Assembly: GCA_030537135.1 (NCBI GenBank)
Contig: JAUNOP010000020.1
Location: 8,043 to 42,834 of the forward strand
Length of the DNA: 34,792 nucleotides
Source: Eubacteriales bacterium
GTDB lineage: Bacteria > Bacillota > Clostridia > Lachnospirales > Lachnospiraceae
Direction of reading: 5' to 3'
A program made the translations under genes and the position numbers. Shown here in pieces: positions 9,931 to 16,969 of the stretch (its first letter is position 1; each line of letters opens with the position of its first letter). The notes beneath the pieces are model-generated. The model saw only the letters and a program-made list of their open reading frames with translations, was not told the DNA's origin and did no database searches.

Positions 9931-10662
9931 ATGAGAATAAATGTAATTTCACCCAGATCGGAATTTGCCCATTCGATTAGCAGGAAGCTTGGAAAATATG
10001 AGATAGTTTGGCATGATATAAATAAGCTTCCGAGAAAGCCGGAGAATTTCCATGCTGATCACGATAGAGTAATCGGTTATCTTATGGAAACAGATTGTTT
10101 CTGTCAGGCAGACGAAAATCTGATAAAATATCTTAGAATGAATGCATATGATGGATTTATTCTTGTGGTTTCGAGAAGTAGACAACGGTACAGACAGATA
10201 GAAGAAAAAATTCAGGCAATCGATGCAGGCGCGGACGAATATATCGGATATATTCAGACGGATGAAGAAATTACAGCCAGTGTGAAAGCGTGGATTCGCC
10301 GGCTTTTCGTGATGGAAAACGGCGTTCTGGAGGTTGGAGGGGGAACATTTCAGGTCAATCTGAGGGAAAGAAAAGCTTATATGGACGGTACAGAGCTTCC
10401 GCTTACCAAGATGGAGTTTGACATTGTGAATTATCTGATGATACACAGGAACCGAGCCGTTTCTTACCAAGAGCTTTATGAAGCGGTGTGGGAGAAGGAA
10501 TACCTTCATGATGATATGAATATCATGGCGCATATCCACCGTATCAGAAAAAAGATGGGGGATGATACCAGAAAACCACGGTATATACAGAATGTATATG
10601 GAATCGGCTATATGATAGAGGGAAAAGCAGCGTACACTGCAGAAAAAGAAGAAAACCCATAA
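9931..10662 (+). CDS. Orphan OmpR-type transcriptional regulator with degenerate receiver
   Basis: The C-terminal ~100 residues form a winged-helix domain: LPLTKMEFDIVNYLMIHRNRAVSYQELYEAVW, then HIHRIRKKMGDDTRKPRYIQNVYGIGYMI. The N-terminal ~120 residues resemble a receiver fold (MRINVISPR at the front, AGADEYIGYI near its end). I see neither a convincing phospho-acceptor Asp nor the Lys of the usual KPF motif, so phosphorylation is unlikely. The start at 9931 has AGGAAA upstream and begins exactly at the first strand. An alternative ATG at 9892 overlaps the hydrolase stop. There is no histidine kinase nearby. As the last gene of the operon it may be its ligand-sensing regulator, which is inference. 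Confidence 0.82.
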   Translation: MRINVISPRSEFAHSISRKLGKYEIVWHDINKLPRKPENFHADHDRVIGYLMETDCFCQADENLIKYLRMNAYDGFILVVSRSRQRYRQIEEKIQAIDAGADEYIGYIQTDEEITASVKAWIRRLFVMENGVLEVGGGTFQVNLRERKAYMDGTELPLTKMEFDIVNYLMIHRNRAVSYQELYEAVWEKEYLHDDMNIMAHIHRIRKKMGDDTRKPRYIQNVYGIGYMIEGKAAYTAEKEENP

Positions 10663-10716
10663 GTGCATCTGTATGTGCCATGCGAACTCAAAAGCACAAT
10701 ATATTACATCAAATTC

Positions 10717-10745
10717 TTGACGCATACCATATCTTGTGTTAAGAT
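10717..10745 (+). promoter_or_regulatory. Sigma-A-like promoter of the ssb operon
   Basis: TTGACG at 10717-10722 and TAAGAT at 10740-10745 are separated by exactly 17 bases. It lies about 55 bases after the regulator stop codon and about 400 bases before ssb. Transcripts from here would run through the hairpin-rich leader that follows. Confidence 0.6.
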
Positions 10746-10862
10746 GATAATGAAATTTGTATTTGTATTCATCAGGAAGATGGATAATCATTTTTCGTTC
10801 CGGGTATGACCGGGAGACAATTATGAGGAACCTTTTATGTTCCTGGCTTATGGAAACGATGC

Positions 10863-10899
10863 GGCCATTTAGAATGAACAGTTCTAAGTGGCCTTTTTG
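10863..10899 (+). terminator. Terminator-like hairpin 1 upstream of ssb
   Basis: GGCCATTTAGAA at 10863-10874 pairs with TTCTAAGTGGCC at 10882-10893 through 12 pairs (one G-T) around a 7-base loop. It is followed by TTTTTGT. This fits an intrinsic terminator or attenuator. Confidence 0.65.
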
Positions 10900-11075
10900 T
10901 ATTGCCGGATATCTGGAAACGATGCGGCAGATCATTTGTCATTTCCATAAAAGTAATACAGATACAAAGATATTTTCAAAGAAGGGAGGGGAAAAATAAA
11001 GCGCAGGAAGTGAAGGCAGACGGGCAGGAGAGGATCGCAATTCAGAAAAAATATCATAATGGAAATCCGCAGGCA

Positions 11076-11109
11076 GGCATTTAGAAGGAAATTCTAAGTG
11101 CCGTTTTTT
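11076..11109 (+). terminator. Terminator-like hairpin 2 upstream of ssb
   Basis: GGCATTTAGAA at 11076-11086 pairs with TTCTAAGTGCC at 11092-11102 around a GGAAA loop, then GTTTTTT. The stem core is the same as in the hairpin about 210 bases upstream. It stands 36 bases before the ssb start, so it must be read through or bypassed for ssb expression from the upstream promoter. Confidence 0.7.
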
Positions 11110-11144
11110 ATGCGGAAAATCCCAAAATTACAGGAGGAAGGCAT

Positions 11145-11834
11145 ATGAACAAATCAATTTTTATGGGACGTCTGGTAAGGGATCCGGAAATCCGATATAC
11201 GGATACGGAGAAAGGGGAACTTGCGATTGCTAATTTCCGGATTGCGGTGGACCGGAAATTTGTAAGAAAAGACGGTGTCAAAACGGATTATTTTACCTGT
11301 TCCGCCTTCGGGCGGCTTGCAGAATTTGCGGAGAAATATCTTCTGCAGGGAATCAAGGTTGTTGTTAGCGGAAGGATGGAAAATGACAACTATAAAAATG
11401 AAGACGGCGAACAGGTCTATGGCATGCGGCTGATGGCGGAAGACATTGAGTTTGCGGAAAGTAAAAAGGCAATGGAGGATCGGATGGAAACAGAAGAGAA
11501 TGACCGCAGGGAACGTTCCTCCGGACAAAGCTCAGAAAGAGGCAGTTCCGGAAGAGCTGGCAGATCCGGTTCTTCATCCAGAGAAAGGGACAGTGAGAGA
11601 GGCAGAAGCTCCGGCAGTTCCAGACATCCTGTCAGAGATGAGGGTTATGAGAATGAAAGAGGGCAGGACAGGGATTCCGGCAGGAGAAGTTCCGGAAGAT
11701 GCACCGGCAGCAGAAGCTCCGGTGGAAGAACTAATGGAAGCAGAAGCTCCGGCAGTTCAAGGCCTGCAGGCAGGAGCCGCAGCGTGGATGAAGAGTATAT
11801 GGAGGCTCCGGATGACGATCTGGATTTTGATTAA
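11145..11834 (+). CDS. ssb: Single-stranded DNA-binding protein with long low-complexity tail
   Basis: Residues 1-110 are a bacterial SSB OB fold: MNKSIFMGRLVRDPEIRYT, then NFRIAVDRKF, YFTCSAFGRLAEFAEKYLLQG and VSGRMENDNY. The remaining ~115 residues are a Ser/Gly/Arg-rich linker built from repeated SSGRSS/RSSG units, longer than in housekeeping SSBs. The tail ends in an acidic DDDLDFD tip. The usual tip ends in Pro-Phe, so the partner-binding residue here is followed by an extra Asp and lacks the Pro. The gene has AGGAGG just upstream. It is likely an accessory SSB of a mobile or defence-like module rather than the chromosomal copy, because it heads an operon of unknown proteins. Confidence 0.9.
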   Translation: MNKSIFMGRLVRDPEIRYTDTEKGELAIANFRIAVDRKFVRKDGVKTDYFTCSAFGRLAEFAEKYLLQGIKVVVSGRMENDNYKNEDGEQVYGMRLMAEDIEFAESKKAMEDRMETEENDRRERSSGQSSERGSSGRAGRSGSSSRERDSERGRSSGSSRHPVRDEGYENERGQDRDSGRRSSGRCTGSRSSGGRTNGSRSSGSSRPAGRSRSVDEEYMEAPDDDLDFD

Positions 11835-11869
11835 AAAGTACCGGATTTTAAACGCGGGAGGGCTAATCA

Positions 11870-12079
11870 GTGTGCGAATTAGAGAGATGGATAGAAAGAA
11901 ATAAAAAGCTCTGTGTGCTGACAGGGATTTTCGGGCTGCTGGTATCGCCGTTTTTATGGCCGTTTTTTCTGGCGCTTATTTTCCAGTCCCTGTCGCTTGC
12001 CGTACCCATTATTATATCCCCTCACGAAGAAAATATGGAAGTGGAAGCGGATAGACCTGACGAACAGCAGATGGGATGA
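11870..12079 (+). CDS. Small single-pass membrane protein (possibly the N-terminus of the next frame)
   Basis: The GTG at 11870 has a strong GGGAGGG site 7 bases upstream and starts a 69-residue frame. A charged start (MCELERWIERNKK) is followed by one or two hydrophobic segments at about residues 13-48, then an acidic tail. The stop TGA at 12077 comes right after a GGG run at 12073-12075. Dropping one G would join this frame to the 398-residue frame below, giving one membrane-anchored protein that continues QQM-DDIYAWLPENEYDD. Either this is a separate small gene overlapping the next, or one gene split by a one-base shift. No family is recognised. Confidence 0.55.
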   Translation: MCELERWIERNKKLCVLTGIFGLLVSPFLWPFFLALIFQSLSLAVPIIISPHEENMEVEADRPDEQQMG

Positions 12080-13193
12080 TATTTATGCGTGGTTGCCGGA
12101 GAACGAATACGATGACTGTGTGCAGATAACATTGGAGGCGCTGACAGATACGGAAAAGCTTTCAAAAAGTCTGGAACGCTACCGGCAGCTTACTGGGAAA
12201 GAATACAGCCAGCGTTTTTGGGAAAGCCAGTCGCATCGGGACAGAAAGACCTTCCGGCATCTTGCGGGATATGGCATGCTGCCGGTTGTGGGATATATGG
12301 AACAGTTTCTGGAAGCGTTCCGCAAGGATGAGGAAAACGCAAAGGACGAGTGGAAAAACCTGCTCTGGTACCTGCACGATTATGTGAAAGAGGTCCAGTC
12401 CCATGAAGCATATGCGATACTGGAGCTTTATGTGAAAGAAATCGGCGTGAATGATCTGGATGGGATTTTTGAGATAACTTCAGTCATGGAATCGCTTTTC
12501 ACCGAAGCATACGGCTCATGGCATTACGGACGCAGCGCCCAAAAACTGGAATTTTTCCGGCCGTTTCTGGATACCAAAGAGTACAGGCAGGTTTTCCAAT
12601 GGATCGATGAATTTGTTTTCCGAAATGATACGGAGCATTATCTTCCGTTCCTGGCACGGTTCCTTTCCTATGAAGACCATCTTTTGTGGTTTCCAAAAGA
12701 GGCGGCACGGGAAATCTTCTTTTGCCTGCAGGCGGGTAAGGACGCAGAAAGGATGCAGGGGGCATTGAGGAGGCTGTATCTGACAGAGGAAGAGCAGAAG
12801 GAGCTGCGCAGCCGGGAACAGCTTATAAAAGACCGGCGGGAATTGAAGAAAAAAATGGACGCCGTAAAGGGCATGAAAAAGGCATTTACAAAAACTGTTT
12901 CCGAAAGCCGCCAGAAGGATGGGCAGTTTAAGGAAATCCAGACTTTTATCAAACATGCACTGTCTGAAAAAAAGGAGGCTGAAAAAAGTGCGGCTTCTTA
13001 TCTGTGCGCGTTTTTTTCAAAAGAAAGGGTCTTCCTGCACAGCAGGGCGGAGATGGAAGAATTGTTCCTGCTGCTTTCCACGCTGTATAGAAGCGGGGCA
13101 ATGGAACTGGAAACTGTGAAAGAATTTGTGGGTAAAACGGAGGAACTGCAGAATGGAGAAACAGATATTGAGGCACATACAGACGGTCAGTGA
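11997..13193 (+). CDS. Unknown helical protein of the ssb operon (start unclear)
   Basis: The open frame yields up to 398 residues and I recognise no family. It is rich in charged helices: DDIYAWLPENEYDDCVQITLE at the front, a Glu/Lys-rich stretch around residues 260-330 that could be coiled coil, and an acidic end. There is no ATG or GTG in the first 80 codons with a ribosome site. The only early start is a TTG at 11997 without a Shine-Dalgarno sequence, inside the preceding membrane-protein frame. This supports translation from the upstream GTG at 11870 with a frameshift near 12073-12075. The 3' end overlaps the 807-residue gene by 41 bases, so the two are translationally coupled. Confidence 0.6.
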   Translation: MPYPLLYPLTKKIWKWKRIDLTNSRWDDIYAWLPENEYDDCVQITLEALTDTEKLSKSLERYRQLTGKEYSQRFWESQSHRDRKTFRHLAGYGMLPVVGYMEQFLEAFRKDEENAKDEWKNLLWYLHDYVKEVQSHEAYAILELYVKEIGVNDLDGIFEITSVMESLFTEAYGSWHYGRSAQKLEFFRPFLDTKEYRQVFQWIDEFVFRNDTEHYLPFLARFLSYEDHLLWFPKEAAREIFFCLQAGKDAERMQGALRRLYLTEEEQKELRSREQLIKDRRELKKKMDAVKGMKKAFTKTVSESRQKDGQFKEIQTFIKHALSEKKEAEKSAASYLCAFFSKERVFLHSRAEMEELFLLLSTLYRSGAMELETVKEFVGKTEELQNGETDIEAHTDGQ

Positions 13194-15576
13194 TATGGAA
13201 AGGGCGCATATCCCGTACACATTTGTAAAAAAATTCGGGGAGGAACGGTGCGCGCAGGTAAGCAGGGCTATTATCGAGCTGGAGCTTCCCGGTATCATCC
13301 GGAAGCTGTCCGAAGACACCTGCGGCTATTTCATGAAGGATAGCAGGATGGTTGGTTACCTGAAACAGATGGAGCCGGTACTGGAGGAAAATGCCCTGAC
13401 GCGGCTCCAGAGCCTGTTCTATCAGGCAGGGGAAGAAAAACTGACAGAGAAGGAATGCAGGGATGTGCAGGAAGTACTCCTGAATGAAGAAATCCCGATC
13501 TTTACGCAATATTGGTTCCTGAAATACTTTAAGCACCGGAACCTGAATGAAACAGAACAGCACCAGGTGTATAAAAGCCTGGAAAAATACAGGAGATGGG
13601 AATTTGCTGATCTGGAAGAACTTTCGGATGAGGAGCGGATGATCCTGGCGCACCCATTATTTACGACTTCGCTTCTGGACTGCATATGGAGTATCCGGGA
13701 AGCGTGGACATTGTTGCTGGGTAAAGGGGTATTGCCCCTGCTTCAGATGATTTATGCCAATGCGGTTCCCGGACAGAGGATAAATGAAAACCAGCTGCGG
13801 CAGCTCGCAGAAAAAACGTCCCGGATCCAGATACTCTTACAGGATGTCTTAACGTTTTTTACGGAAGATCAGCGGCAGAGGTTTCTATCCCTGTGGCTGG
13901 GAAACAATGTGCTCCTTAAGGAGCTGGAATATCTGGCGAAATTACTGCCGGATATGGGAAAGGAACAGAAGGAATATATCCTGAGCGGAAGGCTGCCGTA
14001 TGCGTGCTGTGTGTACAGAATCCGAATGGAACAGCTTCCGGCCGGAAAACTTAACAGCCGGCAGGAGCAGCTCCTGATTTATGCAGTCGTCACAGGAAAA
14101 AAGCATTTCCTGAAGCTGGCAGATGAAAACAGTGAAACATTCCTTGCATTAAGCTGGAATTCTCTTTTGCTGGATCCGGATATTTACAGGAATTGCCTGA
14201 ACCTTAATACGCTGAATGAAAGGAACCTGAAAGAAGGCTGCTGTCTGGAAATGCGGCAAAGGGGAAAGCAGTACCTTGGCAGGGAAGCTTATACATTTGA
14301 AGAATTAAAAGTACTTGCGCCTTTAAATGAGTATCATTACCGGTTTTACGATCTCCTGGCAAATGAAAGAAGTGATGAACGGCTGCGCACGCTGAGGGAA
14401 TTTGTGAAGCGTAACTGCATCCTGTTTGACGGGAAAGAGGAGGAGACGCAGCTGCAGAGGATGGCATGCCGCCTGTCCGAAAAGCCGCTTTCCGTATGGA
14501 TACAAAGGGAACTGGGGCATATAAAGGATCTGGATACGGAAACAGCTTTAAGGCTTCTGGCCGGCTGGGAAGATTACCAGAGATTTGTGCCGGAGCTTTC
14601 CAACGGCTGGCAGGCAATGTACCTGGTAAGGAATAAAGAGATACTGCCAGGATACAAAACGCTGGCAGATTTCCAGAGTGACATACTTAGGAAAGATAAA
14701 ACCTGGCTGTGGCTGGAGAGCCATCTGGACATTCCGGAAGAATTTACAGAGAAATATGAAGGGAGAATCCGTCAGTTTGTGTGCCGGGGCGAGGCAAATA
14801 TCGTCTATCAGTTATGTGAGGACATGAACCACAGGCTGGTAACCGCAGAGCTGATGGGGGCATTTGAAAAATTGAAATACCATGAAGGCGACCTGGAGAA
14901 GGAAATTGCGTTCCCTGTCTCGGAAGGGCAGGAAAATTTGTGGAAGCAGAATCTGGAAAAACGGGAGCATGGATGCCGGCTGTGGGAAGAGGACCGTTTT
15001 ATTCCGGTACTGCAGATCGGGGAGATCCCGATGGAAACCTGCATTTCTTACCGCGGCGGGGTAAACAAGAACTGCCTCCTGTCCTGCTTTGACGCAAACA
15101 AGAAAGTAATTTATTTTGAAACGGATGGGAAAATTGTGTTCCGCGCTTTGATCCGGCTGACAAAAGGCTCTGTAAAGGAAAAACCGGTTCCATCAAAGAA
15201 AATCGAATTTGCGGACCTTACAAAGGAAACGAAAAAGGCAGAATCCGAGGAAGAACTGGTTTTATTTCTGGAGCGCCCTTATTTTGGGGGAATCAGCGAA
15301 AACAAAGAAAACGGGATCATATCTAGGGTTTTCCAGATGGTACAGGAAAAAGCAGAAATGCTGCAGGCACGCATAGTGATCAGCAACAGCTACCGGAAGT
15401 ATGAGGCATCTAAGAAGTATGAACTGACCGATTATTACGTTTATATCTCTGCATCAAAAAACGGGCAGCAGTATCTGGACAGCCTTGGTGGAAAGGCAAC
15501 GGTAAGCGATTCCGGCACATACGGGAAAAACAGTTTTCTGGTGCCAGGCATGAAAAAGGAAAAACTTGCGGCATAG
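13153..15576 (+). CDS. Large uncharacterised protein of the ssb operon
   Basis: This 807-residue protein matches nothing I can name. Most of it (about 1-560) is leucine/charge-rich and alpha-helical, like stacked helical repeats. The last ~230 residues look like a separate mixed alpha/beta domain, with CISYRGGVNKNCLLSCFDANKKVIYFE as its most distinctive stretch (cited in parts: CISYRGGVNKN, then CLLSCFDANKKV), followed by ALIRLTKGS, LFLERPYFGG and DYYVYISASKNG. The Cys-rich loop and ERPYFGG look like conserved active or binding sites, but that is impression only. There are no signal or membrane segments. The ATG at 13153 has GGAGG at 13139-13143, favoured over a TTG at 13126. A strong terminator follows within 30 bases. 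Confidence 0.7.
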   Translation: MEKQILRHIQTVSDMERAHIPYTFVKKFGEERCAQVSRAIIELELPGIIRKLSEDTCGYFMKDSRMVGYLKQMEPVLEENALTRLQSLFYQAGEEKLTEKECRDVQEVLLNEEIPIFTQYWFLKYFKHRNLNETEQHQVYKSLEKYRRWEFADLEELSDEERMILAHPLFTTSLLDCIWSIREAWTLLLGKGVLPLLQMIYANAVPGQRINENQLRQLAEKTSRIQILLQDVLTFFTEDQRQRFLSLWLGNNVLLKELEYLAKLLPDMGKEQKEYILSGRLPYACCVYRIRMEQLPAGKLNSRQEQLLIYAVVTGKKHFLKLADENSETFLALSWNSLLLDPDIYRNCLNLNTLNERNLKEGCCLEMRQRGKQYLGREAYTFEELKVLAPLNEYHYRFYDLLANERSDERLRTLREFVKRNCILFDGKEEETQLQRMACRLSEKPLSVWIQRELGHIKDLDTETALRLLAGWEDYQRFVPELSNGWQAMYLVRNKEILPGYKTLADFQSDILRKDKTWLWLESHLDIPEEFTEKYEGRIRQFVCRGEANIVYQLCEDMNHRLVTAELMGAFEKLKYHEGDLEKEIAFPVSEGQENLWKQNLEKREHGCRLWEEDRFIPVLQIGEIPMETCISYRGGVNKNCLLSCFDANKKVIYFETDGKIVFRALIRLTKGSVKEKPVPSKKIEFADLTKETKKAESEEELVLFLERPYFGGISENKENGIISRVFQMVQEKAEMLQARIVISNSYRKYEASKKYELTDYYVYISASKNGQQYLDSLGGKATVSDSGTYGKNSFLVPGMKKEKLAA

Positions 15577-15600: not shown

Positions 15601-15643
15601 AAAAGCAGGGAACGCCGGTTTATGGCGTTCCCTGCTTTTCTTT
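15601..15643. terminator. Bidirectional intrinsic terminator
   Basis: AAAAGCAGGGAACGCC at 15601-15616 pairs perfectly with GGCGTTCCCTGCTTTT at 15624-15639 around a 7-base loop, with A and T runs outside. It ends the ssb operon on the plus strand. On the minus strand it overlaps the last codons and stop of the XRE regulator, so one structure serves both convergent transcripts. Confidence 0.93.
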
Positions 15644-15969: not shown

Positions 15970-16686
15970 TTGACGGGAAAAATACAGGCTGCCTGCCTTG
16001 CGCTCATTTACTGCTGTTTGTATTCCGGATGCGGCAGGGCGCAAACCAAAACAATAAACACAATAAATGAGAGCGTAGAAAGTACAGCGGCACAGAACGA
16101 ATACCAAATGGATGCCACATCGCTGGTAGAAGGGGAGGATTGTTATATATGCGGAGAGAGGGAAGAAAGCCTGATGCCGTATTACGCAAAACGCGATTCC
16201 ATTGGCATTGTCCACTGGAATAATATGGAGATCATAGATTCTGGCGTAAGAGCTTATGACGATGACGGGAAGGAATTATTCGGACAGAAGAACAGTACCA
16301 TGAGCATCTGCTCTTTTTGCGAAGGCTATGGCAGCGTTACGGTGGATGGGACACCCAACAGGGGCTTTACTCATGTGAAAGCGTACTATAAGGAAAAGGA
16401 TGAACTGGATTTTGCGGCAGTCCGTGGGATGGTATGCCAGAAATGCATGGATAAAGCGGCAGAGTTTTATGAAGATCAGCGAAACGCCGGAAATGAGAAC
16501 CGGATCGCGGCAACAGGCTACTGCCTGGTGGATTTTTCGACCAGGGAGCTTTACACGTTGTCTGATCCGTACCGGGGATATTTTATCAGAGACTATTATG
16601 TGGAGTATGATATTGTGGAAGAATCCGAGGGGACGGATGGATACATAGAATTATTTATAATGTATGCTCCGAAGCGGGAATCGTAG
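15970..16686 (+). CDS. Cys-rich exported protein with CxxC pairs, unknown function
   Basis: A TTG at 15970 with GGGAGGA six bases upstream starts a 238-residue protein. The first ~22 residues (TGKIQAACLALIYCCLYSGCG) are hydrophobic and end in S-G-C, a weak lipobox, so it is probably a lipoprotein. The mature part has three Cys-x-x-Cys pairs: CYICGE at about 58, CSFCEGYG at about 116 and CQKCMDKA at about 156. This spacing suggests metal binding or zinc-ribbon-like structure. No family is recognised. It is divergent from the XRE regulator and is likely controlled through the palindrome upstream. About 640 bases without a gene follow. Confidence 0.65.
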   Translation: MTGKIQAACLALIYCCLYSGCGRAQTKTINTINESVESTAAQNEYQMDATSLVEGEDCYICGEREESLMPYYAKRDSIGIVHWNNMEIIDSGVRAYDDDGKELFGQKNSTMSICSFCEGYGSVTVDGTPNRGFTHVKAYYKEKDELDFAAVRGMVCQKCMDKAAEFYEDQRNAGNENRIAATGYCLVDFSTRELYTLSDPYRGYFIRDYYVEYDIVEESEGTDGYIELFIMYAPKRES

Positions 16687-16969
16687 TATATAAATAAGGA
16701 GCAGTCAGATTGTAGAAACAGAATATATGGAAATAGTGGATCTTCTCGTAAAAAAAACGTTGATTTTCCAGTTATTTTCGGAACTTTTGGGGAAAATGGA
16801 ATTGCACCCAAAGGGCATACATGTTTTTGCGAAGAAAACAGATATGAATTGAAAATTTTGCGACCGGTGGGGTAAGTGGAAAACAGGGTTTTGTTCCGTG
16901 GTATCCAGGAAATGTAAACCGCTTATTTGATACAAAGAGAATGAACAGAATATTGGGAAAACCGCTGAA

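Follow-up and report, generated by a model that had tools for sequence, protein, structure and literature searches.

Pairs formed by a MoxR-like AAA+ protein and a protein with a VWA domain are among the closest described relatives of the system considered here. Kaur et al. (2020, PMC7159879) describe these MoxR-vWA pairs as paired chaperones for the remodelling of partner complexes, and also as the cores of conflict systems. The locus that we analysed lies in a stretch of 34,792 nucleotides of contig JAUNOP010000020.1, from an Eubacteriales bacterium. We call this whole stretch the window and its genome G000; relatives carry G-numbers and loci L-numbers. Between positions 11145 and 15576 the first-pass annotation had seen a complete four-gene system, made of a single-stranded DNA-binding protein (SSB), a small membrane protein and two large proteins, here named A and B. 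We could not uphold that completeness. Comparison with relatives makes it very probable that the arrangement is an internal deletion, in which the ends of a longer operon were kept and the middle was lost. A MoxR-like AAA+ gene adjoins a VWA gene in the intact relatives, and no AAA+ match was obtained in the window genome. The case carries a caution, namely that an operon read from a single genome can be a deletion scar.

The intact operon was found in two relatives of the genus of the window genome, G004 and G001, where the SSB that heads it is 52-55% identical to that of the window. Its order in G004 is SSB, a membrane protein of 208 residues, RecD2 (740 residues), an AAA_5 protein (596), a CobT-like VWA protein (718), two small proteins, A (730) and B (811). 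The same order was seen in G125 and the same genes in G001, and the operon contig of G016 stops in RecD2. The RecD2 domains, AAA_5 and the CobT_C VWA domain were recognised by profile matches. Among the proteins examined, HECGH, which we take to be a zincin-type HExxH motif, occurred together with DxSxS, presumably a MIDAS motif, in 10 of 10 VWA proteins, and Walker A was present in 11 of 11 AAA_5 proteins. The AAA_5 protein was present in 23 of 397 genomes of the family (E<=1e-20). SSB, membrane protein and RecD2 stood upstream of it in 7 of the 20 fetched stretches (L106-L112, including the look-alike pairs L106/L107 and L109/L110), and 4 of these 7 had A-B behind the core.

Judging from the alignments, what is kept in the window is the SSB gene, the start of the membrane-protein gene, the C-terminal half of A and the whole of B, all on the plus strand. 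The SSB gene (11145-11834, 229 residues) encodes an OB fold followed by a Ser/Gly/Arg-rich tail, which the first-pass annotation had described, with an acidic tip, and it matches PF00436 (E=3e-23) and TIGR00621 (86.3 bits, cut-off 53.95). It is 55% identical to the operon SSBs of G001 and G004 over residues 1-229, tail included; the remaining SSBs among the top matches align mainly to its first 110-160 residues. The frames of the small membrane protein and the two large proteins also exist (69, 398 and 807 residues), but the first two are not complete genes. The remnant of the membrane-protein gene (11870-12079) is a hydrophobic frame whose residues 3-47 match the intact 208-residue protein of G004, the homology being clear only over the first 47 residues, to about position 12010; a tblastn search with it gave 64% identity over 45 residues (L089). 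A lies in the open frame 11997-13193, and its homology begins at about 12012 (feature 12012-13193). It aligns to residues 336-711 of the 730-residue A of L021 (40% identity, E=5e-91) and, from about 12042, to residues 363-728 of the A of G004. Membrane-protein homology thus stops, and A homology starts (at about A residue 336), at a junction within 12010-12042. We give this junction as a range because BLAST pushes the membrane-protein alignment weakly on to residue 83, within an acidic tail. The computed spacing between the two junction points in G004 is about 9 kb. B (13153-15576) starts before the end of the A frame, overlapping it, and has no sign of decay (1 of 76 near-invariant columns).

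Regarding the lost middle, we found no second A elsewhere in G000. The G004 AAA_5 protein, the query that was positive in the 23 genomes given above, had no match there, and a search for VWA proteins in G000 gave one weak match only, to a different VWA protein. Two further internal deletions were found. In G005 (L019, 11734-12416, minus strand) the leader is joined directly to a B fragment, and in L084 (3108-4087) the first 80 or so SSB residues are joined to the end of B. The middle of the operon therefore seems to have been lost repeatedly, if we read the window, G005 and L084 in the same way.

A and B have a wider distribution than the operon. Among 61 genomes searched, relatives of B at 36-39% identity were found in four others (G001, G004, G016 and G036), and fragments in G005. 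B also occurs in six plasmid records of 247-628 kb, from Subdoligranulum, Alkaliphilus, Paenibacillus polymyxa (two), Rossellomorea and Virgibacillus, as well as in 2 contigs of a phage collection, 64 loci of bacterial genomes and 3 viral contigs. In our collection of 78 loci with B, which includes duplicates, 71 have a member of the A family, listed upstream of B. Of the seven loci without A, four (L030, L077, L078 and L082) are cut by a contig edge within B or shortly ahead of it, L019 is the deletion remnant, and A is absent without explanation in L038 and L081. A and B are thus almost certainly a near-obligate pair, and it is these two that travel together; all four genes as they stand in the window were together in no other locus examined, SSB and membrane protein accompanying A-B in one subgroup. 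The frames of A are mostly of 640-750 residues (maximum 814), and the longest frame is shorter than 600 residues in 4 of the 71 loci (L029, L059, L080 and the window, with 398).

The neighbours of the pair agree with the DNA-processing or mobile setting that had been proposed for the locus. Outside the subgroup with the operon, LigA, an element-borne NAD-dependent DNA ligase, is close upstream of A-B in 22 loci (L012, L013, L037 and L041 among them) and PcfJ lies within the fetched flank in 31. Some loci also carry SSB and DnaG-zinc-finger genes, and some have actin-like proteins. A coupling protein of type IV secretion systems (T4SS) is in the fetched flank of L065, and related open reading frames (family F45) are in four other loci. 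On the large Bacillales and Alkaliphilus plasmids A-B stands without LigA, PcfJ, actin-like or T4SS neighbours. The pair thus occurs in clostridial mobile elements and on Bacillales megaplasmids. As a separate matter, we considered whether A or B could be relatives of PcfJ and rejected this, with an hhalign probability of 0.2-0.3% and no match to PF14284.

That the two large proteins could not be placed was confirmed, since no scanned library placed A or B. No match at E<=0.001 was obtained for the membrane protein, A or B in any of Pfam, NCBIfam, PADLOC and PHROGs. Among the weaker matches, the best for A were HHH_6 (E=0.0012) and DndG (0.029), and the best for B was YfmH (0.0075); where a curated cut-off exists, they fall below it. 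Against Pfam, ten sequences of the B family gave nothing better than E=0.075. Neither A nor B had a Pfam match to VMAP, iSTAND, FtsH or beta-propeller families, for which no dedicated profiles were used. The intact A of L021 is predicted to be an all-alpha protein, an alpha-solenoid (pLDDT 88.6). B is predicted to be an alpha-solenoid over residues 1-598 followed by a GNAT-fold domain at 600-800, and we assign this fold to its C-terminal end with high confidence on the basis of the model. This is the part that the first-pass annotation had singled out as a distinct domain with a Cys-rich stretch and ERPYFGG, rightly so. It is also the most conserved part of the protein, since 34 of the 44 invariant columns (38 sequences) lie at residues 600-807, which include both. 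The invariant set of the domain comprises C630, D647, N649, K650, K651, R664, R668, K671, K769, Y774 and D776.

Upstream of the SSB gene we found a structured leader of about 150 nucleotides (10754-10904, plus strand), with three hairpins and an intrinsic terminator (stem 10863-10893). A second terminator-like hairpin (11076-11110, plus strand), similar to the first in sequence, stands just before SSB, and L084 and L106 have an equivalent one ahead of SSB. Both hairpins (10863-10893 and 11076-11102) had been overlooked. A common fold with three hairpins and a terminator was obtained from four sequences; the resulting covariance model, R1, scores the window leader at 152.6 bits, the window being one of the four sequences used to build it. 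With strict filters the model has matches in 15 of 397 genomes (E<=0.01). Across 19 leader copies (E<=1e-3), changes on both sides were seen in 29 of 32 pairs and 95.7% of the cells pair; covariation was 0.704, against 0.209 for shuffled alignments (0 of 500 as high) and at most 0.173 when slid. On the sense strand there were 59 G-T cells and 1 A-C cell, therefore it is this strand that folds, as an RNA should. We have hardly any doubt that the leader is a structured RNA, and it probably acts by attenuation. In Rfam 15 the window copy (10600-11200) had no match above the gathering score, with three matches below it.

The leader is preceded by a promoter-like site, TTGACG-N17-TAAGAT (10717-10745 in a consensus scan), within the motif ACCATATCTTGTGTTAAGATGAT (10717-10748, plus strand). 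Such sites are no commoner in the region than in shuffled sequences (8 found, 7.2 expected), yet this one is conserved in relatives, G001, G004 and G005 having the motif ahead of their leaders. It lies within 70 nucleotides upstream of 14 of the 19 leader copies (5 of these 14 being the copies from which the motif was drawn), compared with 14 among 5000 random windows. The pattern of promoter and leader occurs in 4 of 98 genomes (G000, G001, G004 and G005), each with the operon or its remnant, and in G016 it was not found. Leader copies stand before SSB, before AAA_5 operons (L026, L028 and L033) and before other genes. In L021 the gene is RNase-A-like (16168-16964; PF18431), with similar frames in L028 (17112), L034 (11703) and L108 (5067), and in L134 it looks, by eye, like the gene for the Transposase_31-type protein of L031. 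A side observation is an exact direct repeat, TGGAAACGATGCGG, at 10851-10864 and 10914-10927, flanking the first leader terminator. It has 5 matches with at most two mismatches in the window (0.32 expected), and its one-base-longer form was found, among 101 loci, only in the two covering this very stretch.

Taking all this together, we consider it rather likely that the window holds what a deletion has left of a mobile-element operon (leader RNA, SSB, membrane protein, RecD2, CobS/MoxR-like AAA+, HECGH/VWA protein, small proteins, A and B) that would be a machine for processing single-stranded DNA (ssDNA) or nucleoprotein; the role in ssDNA or nucleoprotein processing, taken by itself, we put at an even chance. 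Such a machine is suggested by the gene content (SSB, RecD2, AAA+, HECGH/VWA, and a scaffold with a transferase fold) and by the mobile setting. SSB would coat the ssDNA of the element, the membrane protein would keep the assembly at the membrane and RecD2 would travel along the DNA. The AAA+ ring and its VWA partner would remodel DNA-bound proteins, which the HECGH domain would possibly cleave. A and B may form a solenoid scaffold that offers the transferase domain of B, with its GNAT fold, to a substrate, either protein or tRNA/peptide, and the terminator in the folded leader would gate expression. The homologies, the gene order, the truncations of A and of the membrane protein, the predicted folds and the covariation of the leader are shown by our data, whereas the assembly, its substrates, its purpose in ssDNA processing and the attenuation are inferred. 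The outcome would be the processing of the element's ssDNA or its proteins, for example at entry, replication or repair. Anti-defence genes in plasmid leading regions are reportedly the subject of one study (PMC11541004). In phages and conjugative elements, zincin-like peptidases are a frequent part of polyvalent proteins, according to PMC5512222. With the AAA+/VWA/helicase part missing from the window operon, the complete machine should not function there; SSB and B may still be produced.

An anti-phage or anti-plasmid MoxR-vWA conflict system, in which SSB and RecD2 sense foreign DNA and A-B, with its GNAT fold, is a swappable effector, is the alternative that survives best, and we regard it as unlikely. 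PMC7159879 counts MoxR-vWA pairs whose third component varies among the conflict systems, and in L108, L111 and L112 other genes occupy the A-B position behind the same core. Moreover, G001 has downstream of the island (L015, 1200-5925) a metallo-beta-lactamase-fold protein like LmuA/Avs1a and a DSR2-like protein of 1190 residues with an Avs1b-like N-terminus, and the recurrent internal deletions would suit a costly or toxic system. However, A-B is found mainly near LigA and PcfJ, at some loci beside genes for T4SS coupling or for actin-like segregation, and on large plasmids. The only strong match of the eight intact-operon proteins to PADLOC-DB 2.0.0 was the RecD helicase, AAA_5 giving weak IetA/TRIP13-type matches (E 2e-4 or worse). 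For the window itself the same database had no model for SSB, the membrane protein or B, and A gave the weak DndG match already mentioned.

It is improbable that the window is a natural compact version, in which a shortened A, B and SSB suffice. B is intact and conserved, the frames stay open and A frames below 600 residues exist in three other loci, as given above. Nevertheless, one and the same point interrupts both the membrane frame and A in mid-protein, A has 728-730 residues in the closest relatives (L021-L023), and this operon has undergone other internal deletions in G005 and L084. An assembly artefact, with the full operon really present in the genome, is very improbable: G000 is a draft of 103 contigs and 91% complete, but the rest of it has no second A and no AAA+ match, and the lost pieces would be expected as other contigs.

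Besides such an error in assembly, several points weigh against a deletion derivative of a processing machine. The undecayed B of the window also fits a retained stand-alone role. All six plasmid records with B are typed as non-mobilizable. Three of the seven fetched stretches with the core showed no A-B but those other genes, and therefore A-B may be an exchangeable module. A-B, for its part, is mostly found without the RecD/AAA+/VWA core, so that one joint complex of both is to be taken as putative. Finally, GNAT proteins carry an acetyl-CoA motif, Q/R-x-x-G-x-G/A, between strand 4 and helix 3. It was not seen by eye in an alignment of 10 B sequences, the window having ERPYFGGIS and its relatives other letters, and for this reason we do not file the B domain as an active acetyltransferase.

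Our broader proposal is tentative, and we hold it with somewhat less than even confidence. It is that gut clostridial mobile elements carry a previously undescribed ssDNA-coupled AAA+/protease-like machine, that one leader-RNA family with built-in terminators switches the operons of this machine as well as RNase-A-like genes and further genes of the elements, and that A-B is an exchangeable scaffold-plus-transferase whose GNAT fold has been turned to a reaction without acetyl-CoA. If true, the known equipment of mobile elements in gut Clostridia and of Bacillales megaplasmids would grow by an ssDNA-centred MoxR-vWA machine, two large unannotated and near-always paired protein families would gain a fold and a testable chemistry, and several operons of such elements would have an RNA-based switch in common.

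Downstream, the strong terminator reported in the first-pass annotation was found at 15601-15639 (plus strand), as a hairpin of 17 pairs followed by a T-run. Convergent to the operon is a gene for a helix-turn-helix protein of the Cro/C1 type (PF13443; 15620-15883, minus strand), and beyond it a gene for a protein of 238 residues (15970-16686) without Pfam match at E<=0.001 (best E=0.071).

Regarding the known systems, the leader resembles LoaP-type processive antitermination leaders (the subject of PMC12691694) in that hairpins and terminators lead a long operon, and it differs in that, among the 9 genomes that gave the best leader matches, LoaP is above cut-off in 1. The domain of B is closest to the GNAT acetyltransferases NatD/NAA40 (4u9v, 7kpu), at 14% identity; unlike these it ends a solenoid, lacks an acetyl-CoA signature by eye and has its own invariant residues. 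An alpha-solenoid combined with a GNAT-fold protein is reminiscent of the Nat complexes, which is an analogy of architecture only. The CobS/CobT-like pairs named in papers on phage genomes share CobT_C VWA and AAA_5; here, however, ssDNA genes and A-B are in the operon. As for the MoxR-vWA ternary systems (PMC7159879), the likeness consists of an AAA_5-class AAA+ protein beside a VWA protein, with operon-specific alpha-helical partners. Our operon was seen in Lachnospiraceae, its window copy being without the AAA+ and VWA genes, and it differs from those systems by its SSB, RecD2 and membrane protein, by the HECGH motif on the VWA protein and by the A-B pair, which the scanned libraries did not place.

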